Shown piece after piece: positions 2,776 through 13,957 of a DNA stretch of 38,869 nt (position 1 is the stretch's first letter; every line of letters starts with the position of its first letter). A model generated the notes under the pieces. That model made no database searches and was not told the DNA's origin. It saw only the letters and a list, made by a program, of their open reading frames with translations. Source of the stretch: Spirochaetaceae bacterium. Lineage in GTDB: Bacteria > Spirochaetota > Spirochaetia > DSM-27196 > PWMO01. Made by a program: the position numbers and the translations under genes. The DNA lies in contig REDW01000099.1 of NCBI GenBank assembly GCA_007693325.1, positions 1-38,869 on the forward strand. The letters are read 5' to 3'.

Positions 2776-3453
2776 TCAGCGGCTGTCGGCAACGGGTGGT
2801 GTTGCCGCCGGCTTTGCGCCTGTCGATTTCCTGCCGGCAGGCTTGCTGGGCGGAGGTGCCGCAATCCGGTAGACCAGGATAGCAGTGTAAAGCAGCATCA
2901 GGATTACAAATAGTATCCGGACTGCGATGTAGCCGCGTACCGTTGTCCCGAGCATGATGGCGTGAAAGAAGGCCAATGGGAAAACCAGGTACGCCAGCAG
3001 GTGCATCTTCTTCCAGGTGTTGTACTGAAACTTCAGCGGCTTGAAGAACCACGACGCAATTACGGCGATAATCAGCAGGAACAGTGCGGTGATCCCGAGC
3101 AGCTTGGGTGTGTTGAAAATGATGCGCTGGTAATCCACCAGGTCGGCAACCAGCATGATGACTCCATGAAAAAGGATCAGTATGAACCCCAGCTTGCCGA
3201 GACTGCGGTGCTGCGTCAGCAGTTTGCCCCGCGGAGCGACCTTTTCCATGATCGGCAGCCGCGCGGCAAGGACAAACTGGTAGAACATCATGATGAACCC
3301 CACCAGCGCCATAACCCTGGCGGGATGATACAGCCACAGAATTGCAGCTACCTCTTGCGTTGCCGAAAACTCGTTGACCACGCTTATGGTCCAGTAGGCA
3401 ACCGGCATCAGGGGTAGCAGTATTGCTGCAATCACCAGATGTTTTGCTTTCAT
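2776..3453 (-). CDS. Ferric reductase-like transmembrane heme protein
   Basis: This is a 225-residue integral membrane protein with about six hydrophobic segments and a Lys/Pro-rich C-terminal tail. Paired histidines in successive helices (LGFILILFHG, KKMHLLAYLVFPLAFFHA) fit the two b-type heme sites of the ferric-reductase-like/YedZ (MsrQ) domain. Members pass electrons across the membrane, to iron or to methionine sulfoxide reductase MsrP. No msrP or flavin domain is present here, so the partner is unknown. I chose the ATG at 3453: the reading frame runs 14 codons further upstream, but that part is not hydrophobic and overlaps the predicted promoter. No Shine-Dalgarno is present; the transcript is probably leaderless. 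Confidence 0.75.
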   Translation of the reverse strand: MKAKHLVIAAILLPLMPVAYWTISVVNEFSATQEVAAILWLYHPARVMALVGFIMMFYQFVLAARLPIMEKVAPRGKLLTQHRSLGKLGFILILFHGVIMLVADLVDYQRIIFNTPKLLGITALFLLIIAVIASWFFKPLKFQYNTWKKMHLLAYLVFPLAFFHAIMLGTTVRGYIAVRILFVILMLLYTAILVYRIAAPPPSKPAGRKSTGAKPAATPPVADSR

Positions 3454-3461
3454 GATGCAGC

Positions 3462-3492
3462 AGTATAGCATACGATCAGCATCGCTGATCAA
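3462..3492 (-). promoter_or_regulatory. Promoter with palindromic operator, ferric-reductase-like gene
   Basis: On the minus strand TTGATC (3487-3492) and TATACT (3462-3467) are separated by 19 bases. A perfect 7-bp dyad GATCAGC-N3-GCTGATC (3474-3490) lies in the spacer and touches the -35 box. The predicted +1 is within two bases of the ATG at 3453. A long spacer containing a dyad recalls MerR-type promoters, but the dyad is off-centre. Confidence 0.4.
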
Positions 3493-3513
3493 CACTCCGG
3501 CCGGCCCAGCGCT

Positions 3514-4530
3514 TCAGCGCGTCAGGAGTAGCGGCTGTTGTGTGGCGCGCCGCGGTGACCGCAACGGAGTGCGCAGACGCCGGGCGTAGGACGCAACCCA
3601 GCGGTTCGACCAGCCAAAAAGCGTACTGCAGCGCACGATGTGCCTCACTTCGCTGCGCGCTATCTTGACATTCCCGTTGAACACGTCCGGATTGGCGTCG
3701 CTGATGGCTACCGTGCGTATCGCCAGCAACATCGGCCAGATGCACGCCAGGCGAATCCGGTAGAGTGTTCGCGGCAACAGCTGAACGTAACCGAGTGCGG
3801 CTTGCAGGTGGCGTTCTGCCTTGGCTACCAGCCGGTTCAGCACCGCCAGGGCTTCAGTGCGGTGGCGCGGATCGAAAAGCTGTTCACGCGTGATTCCCGC
3901 CTGGCGGCAGAAGCTCTCAGGCACGTAGATCCAGCCGCGCTCGAAGTCTTTGCGCAAGCCGCGGATGATGTTGACCGTTTGCAGGGCCAGGCCGGTTTCG
4001 CGGGCCAACGGCATCAGGCGATGCAGACGTGCCCGAATCTGCGCAGAATGATAGGCAAAGACTTCGGTGGACAGGTATCCCACGCGGCCGGCAACCTCGT
4101 GCATATAGTCGTCCATGTCTGCTTCGGTCTCGATCTGCGGTCCGCGCGACAGCCAGCGCGCCATACCTTTGGTTGAACGACGCACGTGGAAGAGTATGGT
4201 ATCTCGCAGTTGATCCGGTAGTGCTCGCACTTGCTGCAGGATATCTCCGGCCTGAATCGCCGCCTGATAATCGACTTCGTGCTGTGCCGGGAATCTGCGG
4301 ATACTGCGCTCGAGTTCGGTAGCCCGGCGGTTATCGCCAATGACGTTGTGCCACAGTTCAAGCAGGTGTACCTTCTCAGCGGGCGTCAGGACGTTTGTGT
4401 CTTCCAGATAGTCCGAGACGCGCAGCAGCAGATACGCGAGACAGAGCGAGTTACCAAGCTCTGCCGGCAGGCTGCGAATAGAAGGGTAGAAGGTCCGGCT
4501 GGTGAGCCGCAGCAGATTCCAGCAATTCAT
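3514..4530 (-). CDS. Squalene/phytoene synthase family protein
   Basis: This 338-residue trans-isoprenyl diphosphate synthase family member would condense two prenyl diphosphates head to head, the first step towards squalene, hopanoids or carotenoids. It has the early motif TSRTFYPSIR, the first Asp-rich motif DYLED (residues 40-44), and the second region NIIRGLRKDFERGWIYVP about 150 residues later. Both regions would bind Mg-diphosphate. Length is normal. No desaturase or squalene-hopene cyclase lies nearby, so the product cannot be fixed. A TATGAT box (4545-4550, minus) would give a leader of about eight bases and no ribosome site is seen. The gene runs divergently from the membrane protein at 4653. 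Confidence 0.8.
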   Translation of the reverse strand: MNCWNLLRLTSRTFYPSIRSLPAELGNSLCLAYLLLRVSDYLEDTNVLTPAEKVHLLELWHNVIGDNRRATELERSIRRFPAQHEVDYQAAIQAGDILQQVRALPDQLRDTILFHVRRSTKGMARWLSRGPQIETEADMDDYMHEVAGRVGYLSTEVFAYHSAQIRARLHRLMPLARETGLALQTVNIIRGLRKDFERGWIYVPESFCRQAGITREQLFDPRHRTEALAVLNRLVAKAERHLQAALGYVQLLPRTLYRIRLACIWPMLLAIRTVAISDANPDVFNGNVKIARSEVRHIVRCSTLFGWSNRWVASYARRLRTPLRSPRRATQQPLLLTR

Positions 4531-4584
4531 GACAGCTTCAGTCTATCATACTGGCGCCAATCAACAAACCGGCGATTGCTGTTC

Positions 4585-4613
4585 TTGCATTGTGGCTACT
4601 GAGAGCGTATTAT
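4585..4613 (+). promoter_or_regulatory. Promoter of the membrane protein-uvrA operon
   Basis: TTGCAT (4585-4590), 17 bases, then TATTAT (4608-4613). A Shine-Dalgarno AAGGAG (4641-4646) and the ATG at 4653 follow. This is a good sigma70-type match and the likely promoter for the tandem uvrA as well, since no other is seen before it. Confidence 0.55.
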
Positions 4614-4652
4614 AAGGGAACAGAGAGATAACCACGGATTAAGGAGCGTACA

Positions 4653-5375
4653 ATGAAAATCAGAAATCTACTGCAGGAAGGAGTGAGCATCGGCAAGAGC
4701 AACATCATGCTCTTTGTTCCGGTTCTTGCCTCGTCCATTGTCATCTGGCTCTTGATGCTGATTACCATGGGCGGAGCGGGAATGTTCATGGTCAGCGGCG
4801 CCCAGAGTCCGGAAGCTATGGCCACCGGAGTGGCAACCGCGTTTGGCGGTATGGCGCTGGTTGCGATCGTTGGCGCCATCCTGACCATGCTGGCGCACGG
4901 TATGACGGTTGTGATGGTCGGCAAGGCGCTGGACGGGCAACAGGTTGACCTGAAGAGCGCGTGGAACAAGACGCTGCAACGGATCGTTCCACTGCTGCTG
5001 GCTTCAGTAGTTGTCGGCGTGCTGTTTGGTATCGGCATGATGCTGATTGTACTACCCGGCCTGGTGGTTGCCTTCTTCCTGATGTTCACCTTCGTGGCGG
5101 TCATGACCGACGAGAAGGGAGCATTCGAGTCGATCGGCGCCAGTTTCTCGCTGGTCAAGTCCCGGCTCGGCGATTGTGTGATTTTCTTCCTGCTGCTGAT
5201 TGCGGTAGGCTTTGTGTTTGGCGTGCTGAACGTGATACTAGGCCTGATACCGGTGCTGGGGCAGATTCTCGGTATGATTCTTTCCGCGCTCTACACAGGC
5301 TACGTTTCGATTCTGCTTGTGATGGCGTATCGTGATTTCCAGAGTCCCGCCGCTACCGACGAGCCCCTGACCTGA
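4653..5375 (+). CDS. Multi-pass membrane protein of unknown function
   Basis: This is a 240-residue protein with about six hydrophobic segments and few charged loops. Its make-up resembles bacterial membrane proteins grouped with the glycerophosphodiester phosphodiesterase membrane domain or DUF6159-like families, but I see no catalytic motif. The loop with MTDEKGAFESIGASFSLV between segments is typical of such proteins. The ATG has a clear AAGGAG six bases upstream and a strong promoter. The stop TGA (5373-5375) overlaps the in-frame CTG at 5372 of the tandem uvrA by CTGA. The two genes are therefore in one transcript and probably translationally coupled. Confidence 0.65.
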   Translation: MKIRNLLQEGVSIGKSNIMLFVPVLASSIVIWLLMLITMGGAGMFMVSGAQSPEAMATGVATAFGGMALVAIVGAILTMLAHGMTVVMVGKALDGQQVDLKSAWNKTLQRIVPLLLASVVVGVLFGIGMMLIVLPGLVVAFFLMFTFVAVMTDEKGAFESIGASFSLVKSRLGDCVIFFLLLIAVGFVFGVLNVILGLIPVLGQILGMILSALYTGYVSILLVMAYRDFQSPAATDEPLT

Positions 5376-8300
5376 TCCGCATACCCCGGGGCGCCAACTG
5401 CGCCCCGGACTCCGGCGCTGCTGAAATCACCGTCCGGGGCGCCCGCCAGAATAATCTCAAAGGTATCGATGTCCATCTGCCGCTACGCAAGCTGATCGTA
5501 ATCACCGGGGTCAGCGGTTCGGGCAAATCGTCATTGGCCTTCGACACGCTGTACGCTGAAGGGCAGCGGCGTTATGTCGAGACGTTTTCGGCCTACACCA
5601 GGCAGTTTCTCGACCGCATGGACAAGCCACAGGTCGAACGGATCGATGGTATCCCCCCGGCGATTGCGGTAGACCAGACCAATCCGGTGCGGACGTCGCG
5701 TTCGACCGTTGGCACCATGACCGAGCTCAACGATCATCTGAAGCTGTTGTTTGCGCGTGCATCACAGCTTGTCTGCCGCAACTGCTCGCAGCCGGTTACA
5801 CGAGATACGCCGCAATCCGCAGTAGATTCGATCTTTGCCGACCTCGGCGGCAACGCTACGCGCCTGGTGGTAACCTTTCCGGTTGGCGTTCCAACGGCGT
5901 TCTCCGAGGATGAGATAATCAAACTCCTTGCGGAGCAGGGCTACCGCACGATCCACTCGCGCAGCGACGCTGTGCTGGAGGTTGCTCAGGATCGTACCAC
6001 GCTGACGGAACCTAATCGCCAGCGCATTATCGAAGCGGTTGAAGCCGCGATGCAGCACGGTCACGGCCGCGCAGCAATCTGGCCGGTTGGCGGTAGGACG
6101 CCCGCGCAGCAGCCGTATCGCTTCTCGCGCGATCTGCACTGCGCCCGCTGTGACATTGACTACCGAGATCCGGTTCCCAACCTGTTTTCGTTCAACTCAC
6201 CGCTGGGCGCGTGCCCCGAATGCCGCGGCTTTGGCCGCATTATCGATATCGACCTTGACCTGATTGTTCCAGACAAGCGTGCAACGCTGGCCGAGGGTGC
6301 CGTCCGACCGTGGCAGAGCAGCAGCTACCGCGAGTGTCAGGCCGACCTGCAGAAGTTTGCCCGTCTGCGCGGTGTGCCTCTGAATGTTGCCTGGCGTGAC
6401 CTCAGCGACGCGCAGCGTAACTGGGTGATCGAGGGTGAGGGCGAATGGGACGACGGGGTCTGGTACGGGGTGCGCCGATTCTTTAACTGGCTGGAGTCCA
6501 GAAGCTACAAGATGCACATCCGCGTGCTGCTCTCCAGGTATCGCGCCTATACCGTGTGCAGCAGTTGCAACGGGGCGCGGCTGAAGTCGGAAGCGCTGGA
6601 TTTCCGCGTAGACGGGCTATCGATCCACGACCTCATGCAGCTGTCGATTGACCGCGTGATGAGCTTCTTCGATGAATTGCGTCCCGGCGGTGCGCTGGAC
6701 GAGGCCACCGGGCTGCTGTTGAACGAGATTCGCACGCGGCTGCGCTACCTGGTGGAAGTAGGAGTCGGCTATCTGACGCTTGACCGCCAGTCGCGCACGC
6801 TCAGCGGTGGCGAGGTGCAGCGCATCAACCTTACAACTGCACTCGGTACATCGCTGGTCAACACCCTGTTTGTGCTCGATGAGCCGAGCATCGGGCTGCA
6901 TCAGCGCGACATGCGGCAGCTGATATCGATCCTTACCCGGCTGCGAGATCTCGGCAACACGATCGTAGTGGTGGAGCATGATCCGGAGGTTATCCGTGCG
7001 GCCGACATGGTCATCGACATGGGGCCGCAGGCGGGCGAGCACGGCGGCGAGGTGGTGTTTCAGGGTAGCGTGGCCCGGCTGTTGCGTGCGCCGCACTCAT
7101 TAACCGCCGATTACCTTTGCGGCCGGCGGCACGTTGCTGCACCGTCGGCAGCCGGCGCGTCTGCTGAAGCTGTGACTGCGGGGGCTATAGAAATCCATGG
7201 CGCCTGCGAACACAACTTGAAGCAGATTGACGTAACGCTGCCGTTGCAGCGGCTGGTAGCCGTGAGCGGGGTGAGCGGGTCGGGTAAGTCGACACTGGTG
7301 CAGAACGTCCTGTACAACGCGGTTTGCGCTGCCATGGGCCGCCCGGCCGAGACGCCCGGGCGGCACCGCGACATCGCCGGATTGGAGTTGATCGACAACG
7401 TAGTACTGGTAGACCAGTCTTCTATCGGTAAGACCACTCGATCCAACCCGGCAAGCTATGTAGGCGCGTTGGACGCTATCCGTGCGCTGTTTGCCGCGCA
7501 TGCGGTTTCGCTGCAGCGCGGTTACCGTGCCGGCACGTTCAGTTTCAACTCTGGAAACGGGCGCTGCCCGACGTGTGGCGGCAACGGGTTTGAGCACATC
7601 GAGATGCAGTTCCTGAGCGATATCTACGTGCGCTGCCCGGATTGCAGCGGTACGCGCTACCGCCCGGAAATTCTCGATGTCAAGCTGACCGCGCCGGACG
7701 CAGTGGCGCCGGACGGGGAGATACCTGCGGCGGCCTCAATTGCCGATGTGCTGGCGATGACCGTTGACGCCGCGTGCCGGTTCTTTGCCGATCAGCCGCG
7801 GGTGCTGCGTGCAATGGAGCCGCTGCGCGACGTAGGGCTCGGTTACCTGCGGCTCGGCCAGCCTGTTCCCACGCTCAGCGGCGGTGAGGCTCAGCGACTG
7901 AAACTGGCCGGCCATCTGGCGCAGTCGCAAACCAGGAAAGGCCGCGAGTCGAGCACCCTTTTTCTGCTTGACGAACCGACCACCGGGCTGCACTTCGACG
8001 ATATCGAAGTACTCCTGCGTGCGTTGCGTGCGCTGATTGATGTCGGTCACTCGGTGGTAGTGATCGAACACAACCTGGACGTAGTGCTGGCTGCGGACTG
8101 GGTAGTGGATCTCGGGCCCGAGGGAGGCGAGGCAGGCGGACACGTTGTAGCGTGCGACACTCCCGCACGGCTGATAACCGAGGGCCAGGGACACACCGCC
8201 GTGGCTCTGCGGGCCTACGCGGCGCAACTGGCGCAGGGAAACGTCGAACTCGCGGTTGCCGAAGCAGCTGACGGCATAGAGGCGCGCTCAGCTCCTTGCG

Positions 8301-10939
8301 GCGGACACAGCGACATCGAGATTCGCAGAGCGCGCGAGCACAACCTGAAAGGGATCGACCTCTGCATACCGCTGGGAGAGCTGACGGTAATCACCGGGGT
8401 CAGCGGCAGCGGTAAGAGCACCGTGGCCTTTGATATCCTGTTTGCCGAGGGGCAGCGGCGTTACCTGGAATCGCTTAACGCGTACGCACGGCAATTTGTA
8501 CAACCCGCCGCACGCGCCGACTTTGACAGTGTGATCGCCGTGCCGCCAACGGTGGCAATCGAACAGCGCACCAGCCGCGGCGGCTACAAGAGTACGGTTG
8601 CAACCGTCACCGAGGTCTATCATTTCCTGCGCCTGCTCTACGTCAAGCTGGGGCTGCAGTACTGTCCGGACTGCAACGTGGCAATCAGCCCGCAGAGCAA
8701 GGACGAAATTGCAGCACAGATCATGCGCGAGCATTACGGCTCCAGCGTCAGCGTGCTCGCCCCGCTGGTGGTAGCACGCAAGGGCTACTACACCGACCTT
8801 GCCGGATGGGCCGCCAGGAAAGGGTATCAGACGCTGCGCGTTGACGGTGAAGCTACCCCCACGGCACCGTGGCCACGGTTGGACCGCTTTCGCGAGCATA
8901 CCATCGAGCTGCCGCTGGCGAGCGTGAAGCTATCCAGGCGCAACGCCGATGAGCTGGACCGCGCACTGAATGCGGCCCTGGCTCACGGGGGAGGGGTTAC
9001 CCACGTGGTGGTTGACGGGCGCGAGCAGACGCTGGTCTTTTCTACCTCGCGCGCCTGTCCGAGCTGCGGAACAAGTTTTCCCGACCCTGATCCGCGGTTC
9101 TTCTCCTATAACTCCAAGCACGGCTGGTGCCCCGCGTGCAGCGGTACCGGATTGGCGGACCTGCACACCGAGGACCACAGCGATCCGATGTCTGAAGAGC
9201 AGGTCCGCCCAGATGGATTCAACCATCGGCGCTGCCCGGAGTGCGATGGTACGCGTCTGCGGCGCGAAGCGCGTGCGGTACGTTACCACGGAACCGCGAT
9301 TACCGAGCTGGCAGCGCTGCCGGTTGATGCAGCCGCCGAGTACTTCGCCGCGCTGCAGCTGAGCGGCCGTGAGGCCGTGATTGCGCGCGATATTGTGTCC
9401 GAGCTGGTGGCGCGCCTGGACTTCCTGCATCGGGTGGGACTGGGCTATCTGCCGTTGGACCGGGCAGCGCCTACGCTCAGCGGCGGCGAGTCACAGCGCA
9501 TACGGCTGGCGGCGCAGCTGGGTTCAAACCTGCGCGGCGTGTGCTACATCCTCGATGAGCCCACGATTGGTCTGCACGCACGCGATAACGCGATGCTGCT
9601 GGATACTCTGCACGGGCTCTGTTCCAGGGGCAACAGCGTTGTGGTTGTAGAGCACGACGAGGAGACCATCCGCCGTGCGCAGCATGTGATCGACCTTGGA
9701 CCCGGCGGCGGCACGCTCGGCGGCGAGGTGATGTTTGCCGGGTCGGTAGACCGGTTGCTTCATGACCGGCGCTCGCTGACCGCCAGCTGGCTGCGCAACC
9801 CGCCACAGTTCCTACCGATTGAGCGCTCGCGCGACACATCAGCCGGCTCGATCGTTATCGAGGGCGCGCAGATGCACAATCTGAAAGGGTTCTCGGTGGA
9901 GATCCCGCTGGGGCGATTTGTGGCGGTGAGCGGCGTCAGCGGCAGCGGCAAGAGCACTCTGGTTCACGACGTGCTGCACCGTAATCTACGCGGTCTGCTG
10001 AAGTCGCATACAGCGCCAACGAGCAAACGGTCAGGCGGCAGCGGCAACCGACGTTCGGCCGATCGCACGCTTGCCGGTTGCAGTGCCATCAGCGGCTGGC
10101 AACCGCTGGCCTACGTACGCGAGGTGGACCAGACGCCGATCGGCAGGACACCGCGATCTACACCGGCCACCTATGTCGGCATCTGGGATGCGATACGCTC
10201 CTTGTTTGCCGGCTTGCCGGAGGCGCGCATGCGCGGCTACAGCGCCAGCCGTTTCTCGTTCAACACCGCCGAGGGCCGCTGCCAGCAGTGCGGCGGGCAG
10301 GGAGTACAGCGCATCGAGATGAGTTTTCTGCCCGACGTAATTGTGTTGTGTGACCAGTGCGACGGAAAGCGTTTCACCGCCGATACGCTGGAGGTTACGT
10401 TCAAGAACTGCAGTATTGCCGATGTGCTGGCGATGAGCATCGACCAAGCGGCGGATTTCTTTGACGCGCAACCGGCGATTCTGCATACGCTGCAGTTGCT
10501 GCAGGAGGTAGGTCTGGGCTATCTGCGTCTGGGGCAGCAAAGTCCGACGCTCAGCGGGGGCGAGGCGCAGCGTATCAAGCTGGTAAGCGAACTGGCCAAG
10601 GCTCGCATCAATGGAGCCGCGCGCAACGGCAACAGCGGCCGCCGCAGCGCGGCACTCTACATCCTGGATGAACCTACCATCGGGCTGCACATGGCCGATG
10701 TACAGCGCCTGGCGCGCGTGATCCACCGTCTGGTGGATGCCGGCAACACGGTTGTCGTCATCGAACACAATCTTGACCTTGTGGCGCAAGCCGACTGGAT
10801 AATCGATCTGGGGCCGGAGGGCGGTGCCGACGGGGGCTCGGTAGTGGCAACCGGTCCACCGCAGCAGATTGCCGCCGAAGCGGCTTCTCACACCGGGCGC
10901 TACCTGAAGCCGATTCTGTTGCGTCGCAGCCAAAGCTAA
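5372..10939 (+). CDS. uvrA: Tandem double UvrA (excinuclease ABC subunit A duplication)
   Basis: This single protein of about 1855 residues holds two complete UvrA units, hence four ABC ATPase modules; normal UvrA is about 940 residues. UvrA recognises DNA damage in nucleotide excision repair. Walker A motifs GVSGSGKS start at residues 46, 633, 1009 and 1521. LSGGE signatures start at 477, 835, 1369 and 1727, each followed by LDEP Walker B. CxxC zinc pairs are present in all modules. The first unit has normal UvrB-binding and insertion regions; in the second the insertion domain is shrunk to a short linker. No ATG, GTG or TTG lies between the in-frame stop at 5333 and Walker A. I take CTG 5372, overlapping the upstream stop, as the most plausible start. 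It could be a dedicated drug or damage resistance paralogue rather than the housekeeping UvrA. Confidence 0.85.
5386..5408 (+). promoter_or_regulatory. Hairpin at the 5' end of uvrA
   Basis: A perfect 9-bp GC-only inverted repeat (CCGGGGCGC at 5386-5394, GCGCCCCGG at 5400-5408) with a 5-base loop starts ten bases after the stop codon of the upstream gene. No T-tract follows. It could act as an attenuator, a processing block or a recoding stimulator. Confidence 0.5.
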
Positions 10940-11064: not shown

Positions 11065-12363
11065 GTGATTCAGAAACACGTAGTATTGAGGGCGTTGTTT
11101 GGATTGTACGTGGTTGCCGGTTTTGCTTTTGTGCTGACCGGTACTGTGCAGGTGGTTTCGGCTGCGCTGCCGCAGTCGGCCGACCAGGAGCTGGAACTGG
11201 ATGTAGACATCATCAAGAACCGCTGGCAGTGGGATCCGGACCACATAACGGTGGGAGAGGGAACGCTGGTTCGGTTGAATATTACCAATGATGATGATTA
11301 CGATCACGGATTCGCAGTATCTGAGTTCGGCGTTGATCAGCGTTTACCGGCCAATTCGACTACGACCGTTGAGTTTGTTGCCTCACGCGCGGGAGATTTC
11401 ACCTTTTTCTGTTCGGTCTATTGTGGTGCCGGCCACTTTGGACAACGCGGTACGCTTACGGTGCTATCCGATGATTCCGACCGGGTGGCTTACGAGGACG
11501 GTATTACCGCCGAGTCAGACCTGCCGATCCGAAGCCACAAAGACTCGGTCGAACGACTCGGCTACACGATTGCCGAAGACGGCGTCAAGGAGTTCGAGCT
11601 GAGCGCCGACCACATCATGTGGGACTACGGTGACGGGCACGTCATAGAGTCGTGGGGGTACAATGGGCAGCTGCCCGGACCGGAAATCCGCGTGACCGAG
11701 GGTGATACGGTGCGGATCAGTTTCACCAACAAGCTGCCGGTAGCCACAACGGTGCACTGGCACGGTATTGACCTGGTCAATCCGATGGACGGAGTCCCGG
11801 GCTACACGCAGGACCCTATCGAGCCGGGTGAGACCTTCGTTTACGAGTTTGTGGCATATCCGGCCGGTACCCGCTTCTATCATACGCACGGCTCGCACCA
11901 CGGTGATGAGGCGCAGCAGATGGATATGGGGCTGGCCGGCGCGTTTGTTGTTGAGCCGCGCGATTACCAGGCTCCGGACGTAGAGAAGACCTGGGTTCTG
12001 ACCGAGCGCATTCGCGACGGAATCTTCCCGATCAACGGTGCGGTCTATCCGGAGACCGATCCGATTCGGGTCGTTGAGGGCGACCGGGTGCGGGTGCGTA
12101 TGATCAACGCCGGATCGGCAACGTTTCATCCGATGCACCTTCACGGGCACCAGTTCAAGGTGATCTCGGTAGACGGGAACCCGGTACCCGAGGCTGCGCA
12201 ACTGACCCGCAACACGCTGCCTATTCTGCCTGGAGAGACCTACGACGTGGAATTCATCGCGGATAATCCGGGGCTGTGGCTGTTTCATTGCCACGAGCTC
12301 AATCATGCTGCGGGGGGTATGATCAGCGCGGTTATCTACGATGACTACATCGGCGGGCATTGA
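11065..12363 (+). CDS. CuA-like cupredoxin fused to a two-domain multicopper oxidase
   Basis: This 432-residue exported protein has an N-terminal hydrophobic signal or anchor (about residues 8-30). A COX2-like cupredoxin domain follows (about 35-140), then two multicopper-oxidase cupredoxin domains. The first domain carries a CuA-type site: His81, Cys116, Cys120, His124. The position of the usual Met ligand is Gln127. The oxidase part has all four copper motifs: HWHG (231-234), HTH (273-275), HPMHLHGH (355-362) and HCHELNH with Met419. Hence a type 1 centre (His355, Cys409, His414, Met419) and a trinuclear cluster are expected. It probably oxidises a periplasmic substrate (metal, phenol or redox protein) and reduces oxygen. 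The GTG start has AAGGAG six bases upstream. Confidence 0.85.
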   Translation: MIQKHVVLRALFGLYVVAGFAFVLTGTVQVVSAALPQSADQELELDVDIIKNRWQWDPDHITVGEGTLVRLNITNDDDYDHGFAVSEFGVDQRLPANSTTTVEFVASRAGDFTFFCSVYCGAGHFGQRGTLTVLSDDSDRVAYEDGITAESDLPIRSHKDSVERLGYTIAEDGVKEFELSADHIMWDYGDGHVIESWGYNGQLPGPEIRVTEGDTVRISFTNKLPVATTVHWHGIDLVNPMDGVPGYTQDPIEPGETFVYEFVAYPAGTRFYHTHGSHHGDEAQQMDMGLAGAFVVEPRDYQAPDVEKTWVLTERIRDGIFPINGAVYPETDPIRVVEGDRVRVRMINAGSATFHPMHLHGHQFKVISVDGNPVPEAAQLTRNTLPILPGETYDVEFIADNPGLWLFHCHELNHAAGGMISAVIYDDYIGGH

Positions 12364-12373
12364 ACCTGAGGAT

Positions 12374-13957
12374 TCACAGTAGCAGCAGCACAGCCCACAC
12401 GATAATCAGTCCGCTGACCGCCCAGCTGATGTAGCGCAGAAGGTGACCGTTGTGCAGTATTCGCAGCTGGGCAACCGCGGCGATTGCGGCGCGCCGCATG
12501 ATTCGCAGCACACCGGTTGATTGTGGCAGCGCGGCGCGCAGCAACCGATTGATGCGTGCAAAAGCCGCCACGAACAGTGCAGCGGCCAGCAGTGCCGGCC
12601 ACACACCGCTCAGGATTCCGCCGGCATAATAGAACTCAGCGCCGGTATGGAAGAACTGCCGCAGTACCAGCTGTGGCGCAACGCCGAGGGCAACGCAACC
12701 AGCGCTCAGCAGTCCCATGGCCAGCCACTGCACAAGCGGCGTGCGCGCCGGCGGCGCTTTGGCTGCGGCCTGGTCCGCTGCGCTTTCTGGTTCCGCTTTG
12801 GACACAAAGAAGCACAGATAGAGAAACTTGGTGAAGGAAAGCGCGGTACCAACGCTGGCGGCAATCAGCAGCCATACCGCGGGGGTTCCAGCGAGGGCCT
12901 GCTTCAGCAGCGACTTGCTGATGAAGCCGTTGAACGGCGGCAGCCCGGCGATCGAGGCCGATCCAACAACGGCTGCCAGCATCAACAGCGGCTTGCGGCG
13001 GCCGGCACCCTCTATCCGGTACATGTCATTGTGTCCGAAACAGTCGACCAATGAACCGGCCACCATAAATAGAAGCCCTTTGTAGATAACGTGGCTCACC
13101 AGGTGATAGTAGCCGCCACTGACCGCCAACGGAACAACACTGGCAACGCCGGCAGTCATGTAGCCAACCTGGCTTATGATGTGGAAGCTCAGAAACTCGC
13201 GCAACCCGCGCTGTTTGAGCGCGTACAGCACCGCAACCAGAGCCACAACGCCGCCGAAGATTTCCAGGCCAAAGCCCGGCAGCAGCAGTCCGGCGCCGAT
13301 CACGCCGGCTTTGGTGGCGTAGGCTGAGAGCACCACAACGGTTTCACGCCTGACCGCCGGATAGGTCTCGGTCAGCCACAGGTGCAGTGGAATAGCCGCG
13401 GTCTTGATGGCCACTGCCAGCAGGAAGAACGCATGTCCCGCGCTGATATTCGATAGCGAGACATCACCGGTGGCGCCGTAGTTGACGGCAATGCCGATCA
13501 GCAGTGCAACCGCACCGGCCATCTGGTAGATGAAGTAGCGCCGCAACACCGAGAACCTGGTCTGATCCTGATAGATCAATATGATGGCACCGAGTGTGAT
13601 CAGTTCCCAGAAGACAAAGAAGCTGAGCAGGTCGGCAACCGTGGCCAGCGCCAGGGTGGCGCCGCTATGGAGCAGGGCTGCTGCGGCAAACCAGCGGCCC
13701 GGTCGATGCGGTCGCACGTACAACAGCGAAATACTGCCGAAAGCCGCCAGCGCGGCCCCGACAAAACGCGCCTCGGGCGGGTAGTGCGAGAACGAGAAGA
13801 CAAAACCGAAGAACTCAGCGCCAATCGGCACGCTGAGCGGCGCCATAAGGTGGGCCGCTGCCGCGACCGCGAGCACCGCTGACGCCGCCGTTATAGCCCA
13901 GCGCTGCGGCAGGATTGCCATTGCACATGCGCTTGCGATAACCAGCAACCCGATCAC
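12374..13957 (-). CDS. Extra NuoL/M/N-like antiporter subunit of the Mrp/Mbh-type module
   Basis: This 527-residue, roughly 14-helix proton-conducting subunit is related to NADH dehydrogenase NuoL/M/N and Mrp antiporter subunits. The channel residues of the family are present: Glu in FFVFWELITLG (TM5), Lys in AVAIKTAAIPLHLWL (TM7) and Lys in FNGFISKSLLKQ. It is the last gene of the operon. I set the start at GTG 13957, which overlaps the stop of the preceding mrpD by GTGA; the longer reading frame to 14269 only antisense-extends into mrpD in another frame. It most likely takes the place of the NuoL-like core of MrpA, whose C-terminal parts are separate genes here. Confidence 0.8.
   Translation of the reverse strand: MIGLLVIASACAMAILPQRWAITAASAVLAVAAAAHLMAPLSVPIGAEFFGFVFSFSHYPPEARFVGAALAAFGSISLLYVRPHRPGRWFAAAALLHSGATLALATVADLLSFFVFWELITLGAIILIYQDQTRFSVLRRYFIYQMAGAVALLIGIAVNYGATGDVSLSNISAGHAFFLLAVAIKTAAIPLHLWLTETYPAVRRETVVVLSAYATKAGVIGAGLLLPGFGLEIFGGVVALVAVLYALKQRGLREFLSFHIISQVGYMTAGVASVVPLAVSGGYYHLVSHVIYKGLLFMVAGSLVDCFGHNDMYRIEGAGRRKPLLMLAAVVGSASIAGLPPFNGFISKSLLKQALAGTPAVWLLIAASVGTALSFTKFLYLCFFVSKAEPESAADQAAAKAPPARTPLVQWLAMGLLSAGCVALGVAPQLVLRQFFHTGAEFYYAGGILSGVWPALLAAALFVAAFARINRLLRAALPQSTGVLRIMRRAAIAAVAQLRILHNGHLLRYISWAVSGLIIVWAVLLLL

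Follow-up and report, generated by a model that had tools for sequence, protein, structure and literature searches.

The gene at 11065–12363 (+) of the window, the 38,869-nucleotide stretch of contig REDW01000099.1 from a Spirochaetaceae bacterium analysed here, encodes a protein of 432 residues in which a CuA-type domain with a natural glutamine ligand shares a single chain with a two-domain multicopper oxidase (MCO), an assignment strongly supported by the sequence. In our best reading of this protein (CuA-MCO), to which we give slightly better than even chances, the Gln-axial CuA site would deliver electrons to the type 1 copper, and the enzyme would reduce O2 in the periplasm.

The open reading frame begins with GTG at 11065 and ends with TGA at 12361–12363; these boundaries, given in the original prediction, were found correct on re-examination. 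The protein is 85% identical to its homologue in locus L027, from the same genus, and represents a form without the C-terminal Sco domain described below. A hydrophobic N-terminal helix (residues 2–25; 11068–11139, +), seen in the AF2 model and in a region present in the homologues, is a probable membrane anchor. It is followed by the CuA-type cupredoxin domain (residues 41–134; 11185–11466, +), MCO domain 1 (11545–11964, +), and MCO domain 2 (11974–12345, +). The corresponding Pfam matches span residues 31–133 (Cupredoxin_1, 2e-14), 194–299 (Cu-oxidase_3), and 318–426 (Cu-oxidase_2). The AF2 monomer is of moderate confidence (pLDDT 77, pTM 0.60), and a fold search with this model retrieves the three-domain nitrite reductases of Hyphomicrobium first, followed by two-domain MCOs. 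The model of the L027 protein shows an additional alpha/beta domain. Neither of these monomer models provides a reliable inter-domain geometry. An Rfam scan of the whole window gave no match, and a promoter and terminator scan around the CuA-MCO gene gave no signal above chance. Directly upstream, at 5534–10939 (+), lies a gene for a UvrA-like protein of 1801 residues, about twice the usual length, with a matching gene in L027.

The putative CuA ligands are His81 (11305–11307, +), Cys116 and Cys120 as bridging thiolates (11410–11424, +, with Val118 at the carbonyl position), and His124 (11434–11436, +), while Gln127 (11443–11445, +) occupies the place of the axial Met. All five residues are located where the original prediction had put them. 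The canonical CuA spacing is Hx34Cx3Cx3Hx2M (PMC6189053), and the window domain follows it in every position except the last. Shuffling the window protein 20,000 times gives the H-x34-C-x3-C-x3-H pattern twice, and the pattern is kept in 22/22 complete homologous domains from three phyla (with x35 in two Kaiserbacteria), so it is not a product of chance. The cysteine pair, whose absence from homologues would have weakened the CuA assignment, is invariant in the complete domains, as are both histidines. In agreement with a CuA-type cupredoxin fold, the best sequence matches of the first domain in the PDB include Thermus CuA variants (E ~1e-8) and N2O reductase (2e-8), as well as nitrosocyanin, and its scores against profile models are 63.6 bits for N2O reductase (NosZ) and 39.8 bits for CoxB.

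A review describes the CuA coordination of cytochrome oxidases and N2O reductases as fully conserved, down to the axial Met, and gives the ligand between the two cysteines as a backbone carbonyl (PMC6696091). The replacement of the usual Glu by Val118, also pointed out in the original prediction, is real but carries no meaning for ligation, since the residue at this position coordinates through its carbonyl. Among the complete domains the axial position is Gln in 19 (17 spirochaetes and 2 Kaiserbacteria) and Met in 3, all from Nanohaloarchaea; within the bacterial branch, Gln is thus fixed rather than a private mutation. A Met two residues past the last His (Hx2M) is found neither in the window nor in any intact bacterial copy, and we therefore name the domain CuA-type and do not class it as canonical CuA. 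A literature search for work on M160Q-type CuA variants retrieved no paper. An axial Arg occurs in one apparently broken copy outside this tally (L021, G012:C175), which is accompanied by a truncated PCuAC gene; this copy may be decaying, or the assembly may be at fault.

The remainder of the chain is a complete two-domain MCO, as originally predicted. The trinuclear His pairs are H231/H233 and H273/H275 in domain 1 and H358/H360 and H408/H410 in domain 2, and the type 1 ligands are H355, C409, H414, and M419, with roles assigned via the family motif. All these ligands are invariant among full-length homologues, as are the surrounding motifs, HWHG and HTHG in domain 1 and HPMHLHGH and HCHELNHAAGGM in domain 2. 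Domain 1 has no type 1 Cys, with HTH in place of HCH. In type B two-domain MCOs the type 1 copper is found in domain 2 only (PMC13151041). These enzymes are homotrimers with an interfacial trinuclear cluster, and their type 1 sites face a central tunnel. The window protein carries the Cys/His/His/Met set in domain 2 (HCHELNHAAGGM) and none in domain 1 (HTHG), together with eight trinuclear His in four HxH motifs, as in type B, and the MCO part would be expected to form a trimer.

Several established identities were considered and rejected. A NirK nitrite reductase is incompatible with the type 1 Cys being in domain 2 only and with a TIGR02376 score of 68 bits against a cut-off of 296. For cytochrome c oxidase subunit II, the CoxB score is 39.8 against 147.7 bits and no COX1 is found in the genome. 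The best MCO profile match is the copper-resistance oxidase CopA, followed by CueO, but both fall far under their curated cut-offs (160 vs 479 and 128 vs 525 bits, respectively), and the protein is thus not assigned to the cuprous oxidases.

Most spirochaete homologues are longer than the window protein (~589–601 residues, about 595) and carry a C-terminal Sco domain (SCO1-SenC, E 1.2e-47), whose CxxxC motif and distal His are invariant over 15 aligned rows. A PCuAC gene lies directly downstream in all 14 Sco-form loci in which the contig continues; its HX10MX21HXM motif was checked by eye in L027. PCuAC is present in 16 of the 19 genomes with CuA-MCO and in 2 of the 27 without it (Fisher p 1.2e-7, not corrected for kinship). 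The three carriers without PCuAC are the window's genome and G032, both with a Sco-less MCO, and G017, where the contig ends; in one of the two genomes with PCuAC and no CuA-MCO (G041), a contig ends in a Sco fragment beside the PCuAC gene. COX1 is present in just 2/19 CuA-MCO genomes, so these assembly genes are usually found without a cytochrome oxidase client. The occurrence of CuA-MCO shows no association with COX1 in either direction (Fisher p 1.0), as COX1 is rare across the whole order, and the idea that the MCO replaces COX1 was dropped.

The CuA of the Thermus ba3 oxidase matures through a pair of factors, with Sco responsible for reducing its cysteines and PCuAC for inserting the copper (PMC6696091). 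Given these roles, the Sco fusion, the linkage to PCuAC, and the scarcity of COX1, the CuA domain is most likely the client of both factors. The co-inheritance of a fused Sco and an adjacent PCuAC is new evidence for real metallation of the CuA site, which we regard as likely. PCuAC is not specific for CuA, as the nitrite reductase AniA receives its copper from a PCuAC protein, AccA (PMC13006917), and the pair may therefore act on the MCO coppers or on other cuproproteins. An unfused MCO–Sco neighbourhood is observed on Sinorhizobium plasmids, where separate MCO, SCO, and DUF411 genes adjoin.

The Sco-less form in the window is the result of a deletion. The gene order in L027 is uvrA, CuA-MCO-Sco, PCuAC, and Mrp genes. 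The segment at 3783–4835 of L027 (~1.05 kb) is absent from the window, while blastn shows collinear flanks on both sides of the junction (12352–12376), where the Sco domain and the PCuAC gene are missing between the MCO and the Mrp genes. As a consequence, the reading frame stops at residue 432 and the Mrp gene starts 10 bases after it. The rest of the genome (97.5% complete) yielded neither a Sco nor a PCuAC gene. Every copper ligand is nevertheless intact, and the end branch of the window copy in the tree is 0.055, compared with 0.159 in its Sco-bearing sister. Between the window and L027, pN is 0.055 for the CuA domain and 0.077 for the MCO, with synonymous sites near saturation; purifying selection is no weaker on the CuA domain than on the MCO. 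The homologue of G032 (L029) likewise lacks Sco and PCuAC and keeps its full reading frame. The tree does not group it with the window copy, so two independent losses are likely.

A search of the 46 genomes with the class I cytochrome c model PF13442 found no match, so the usual CuA donor is probably missing from them. The original prediction had proposed a self-contained electron relay; this is too strong, as an external reductant would still be required. One candidate donor is a Ferric_reduct-type membrane protein encoded in the window at 2776–3495 (−), with a Pfam PF01794 score of 48 bits and 50% identity to the corresponding neighbour in L029. A gene of this type is divergently upstream of CuA-MCO in 10 full-length and 3 partial spirochaete loci. 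In two Nanohaloarchaea, CuA-MCO is adjoined by a weakly CopD-like membrane protein with distant similarity to neighbours of the gene in Kaiserbacteria. Both types of neighbour are candidates only. Elsewhere in the window's genome (G000), on contig C3 (L003 625–1788), a gene for a Ferric_reduct-like protein of the same membrane family as the CuA-MCO neighbour in relatives lies beside a small plastocyanin-like gene. Contig C141 of G000 (L002 1024–2993, −) encodes a nitrite-reductase-like two-domain copper enzyme with a C-terminal plastocyanin domain, adjoining a separate plastocyanin-like protein.

These observations, firm at the level of sequence, are consistent with CuA-MCO acting as a membrane-anchored, extracytoplasmic (periplasmic) copper O2 reductase. 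A binuclear CuA would be held in its N-terminal domain by Cys116, Cys120, His81, His124, and the carbonyl of residue 118, while Gln127 would take the axial position. The domain would accept electrons one at a time from a donor that may be the Ferric_reduct-type protein or a small cupredoxin, and less probably a cytochrome c. From CuA the electrons would travel by way of the type 1 site in MCO domain 2 to the trinuclear cluster and there reduce O2 to water. Most of the spirochaete relatives would rely on their Sco domain and neighbouring PCuAC to reduce the CuA cysteines and load copper, making the enzyme and its assembly factors one unit, whereas the window copy has lost this module by deletion and retained its CuA site.

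An electron relay between the CuA site and the type 1 copper, as put forward in the original prediction, is plausible but does not follow from the fusion as such, because in the best-studied relative with an N-terminal tether, the three-domain nitrite reductase of Hyphomicrobium, the tethered copper is ~24 Å from the core type 1 copper (PMC7201279). This distance would suit a CuA domain that is metallated but has a structural, docking, or copper-holding role, with small reductants such as phenols, Fe(II), or Cu(I) donating directly to the type 1 copper in the manner of CueO-like enzymes or laccases, in the service of copper tolerance or of O2 or metal detoxification. The ranking of CopA and CueO as the nearest MCO profiles, even if far below threshold, points the same way, as do the CopD-like proteins beside the gene in two Nanohaloarchaea and their distant relatives in Kaiserbacteria. 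We nonetheless consider this role rather unlikely: the four CuA ligands are strictly conserved at canonical spacing and accompanied by a fused Sco, which argues for a redox-active binuclear site, and the sequence of the window protein shows no Met-rich stretch of the Cu(I)-oxidase kind.

It is far less probable that the first domain holds no binuclear copper at all, being a mononuclear or apo cupredoxin, and that Sco and PCuAC serve the MCO coppers only. The missing axial Met, the ability of PCuAC to load a type 1 copper in AniA (PMC13006917), and the persistence of the window and L029 copies after the loss of Sco and PCuAC would fit such a domain. Against this, a single Cys suffices for a mononuclear type 1 site, whereas two Cys and two His are invariant here at the exact CuA spacing, and the three archaeal homologues with Met represent the same domain with the full canonical ligand set. 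Gln as an axial ligand is also not foreign to cupredoxins, as TsNirK has working type 1 coppers that are coordinated by Gln (PMC6400189). Compatible with any of these readings of the family, but equally improbable, is that the window copy is a decaying, non-functional remnant, unable to mature without Sco and PCuAC. The deletion is clear, the genome offers no second copy of either factor, and an apparently broken gene is known in G012 (L021), yet the intact ligands and the short end branch of the window copy speak for a maintained gene, as do the full reading frame of the second lineage without both factors and the existence of Sco-less forms in Kaiserbacteria and Nanohaloarchaea.

CuA-MCO is present in 19/46 genomes of the spirochaete order to which the window belongs, in 2/393 genomes of a wider draw from the phylum with full coverage (with 3 further matches without the CuA domain), in 3/28 Nanohaloarchaeota, and in two Kaiserbacteria. 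A relative in Chloroflexi (L046) consists of the MCO part only, and a plasmid collection contained no full-length relative. In the tree, the sequences from Kaiserbacteria and Nanohaloarchaea group together (87/97), separate from the spirochaetes, whose deep forks are weak; this grouping makes transfer of the gene between phyla likely. The Kaiserbacteria and Nanohaloarchaea proteins have no Sco fusion, and the tiny genomes of these organisms make a respiratory role unlikely there. Isolate names of the carriers, such as DLM2, PLM2, and CSSed, presumably denote soda-lake sets. A wider proposal, that CuA-MCO is a heme-free O2 reductase combining a Gln-axial CuA with an MCO, matured by Sco in cis and moved between soda-lake bacteria and archaea, is tentative and falls somewhat short of even probability; its setting is one of lineages mostly without a heme-copper oxidase, in which no class I cytochrome c was detected.

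CuA centres have been described in cytochrome oxidase and N2O reductase, as well as in PmoD, where the ligands differ. CuA-MCO shares the Hx34Cx3Cx3Hx2 spacing, cupredoxin fold, and sequence similarity with the CuA domains of subunit II and N2O reductase, but in bacteria it has Gln for the axial Met, an MCO is attached, and the genomes mostly have no heme-copper oxidase. The Hyphomicrobium denitrificans nitrite reductases (PDB 2DV6 and 6TFO), which rank first in the fold search with the full-length model (E 2.5e-23, TM 0.49), also tether an N-terminal cupredoxin to a two-domain copper enzyme; there, in contrast, the tethered domain is of type 1, the core has type 1 and type 2 sites instead of a trinuclear MCO centre, and Sco is absent. 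The type B MCOs SLAC and CjMCO have the same two cupredoxin domains, a type 1 copper in the C-terminal domain only, and the trinuclear His, whereas a CuA or Sco domain is not described for them in PMC13151041. By its entry title, the Nitrosopumilus MCO (PDB 9CCK) is a two-domain copper oxidase with a tethered cupredoxin, which the title does not call CuA; its partner is C-terminal and it has no Sco. TsNirK of Thermus scotoductus (PMC6400189) combines a tethered cupredoxin with Gln-coordinated copper, although in this nitrite reductase Gln serves mononuclear type 1 sites. The Sco and PCuAC families of the Thermus ba3 system (PMC6696091) are here linked to a CuA-type domain, with the difference that Sco is fused in cis to its likely client and that this client is an MCO.

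Searches of open-access text returned nothing relevant on a CuA-MCO or MCO-Sco fusion. Judged from its sequence, CuA-MCO would join the tethered-partner copper enzymes as a variant in which the combination of CuA with a type B MCO, and in most spirochaetes with Sco, is new relative to that literature. If the preferred reading of a CuA site feeding an O2 reductase is correct, this would be a third kind of CuA-using enzyme, and the axial Gln in bacteria against Met in the archaeal relatives would provide a direct natural test of the role of the axial ligand. With Sco and its likely client on one polypeptide, CuA maturation could also be studied as an intramolecular process.

Short His-rich C-terminal tails (GGHDEH, SSHH, AEHH, HEHH) are common in Sco-less homologues (L029, L041, L044, L045, and L047). 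Near the CuA-less MCO of the Chloroflexi locus L046, separate cupredoxin genes are located at 5902–6369 and 11776–12450, one of which has a Cys pair without the matching His, possibly reflecting an unfused arrangement. In the Kaiserbacteria locus L047, the gene upstream of CuA-MCO (3217–5406) encodes a multi-TM membrane domain joined to a cupredoxin-like region and a YncE-type propeller.
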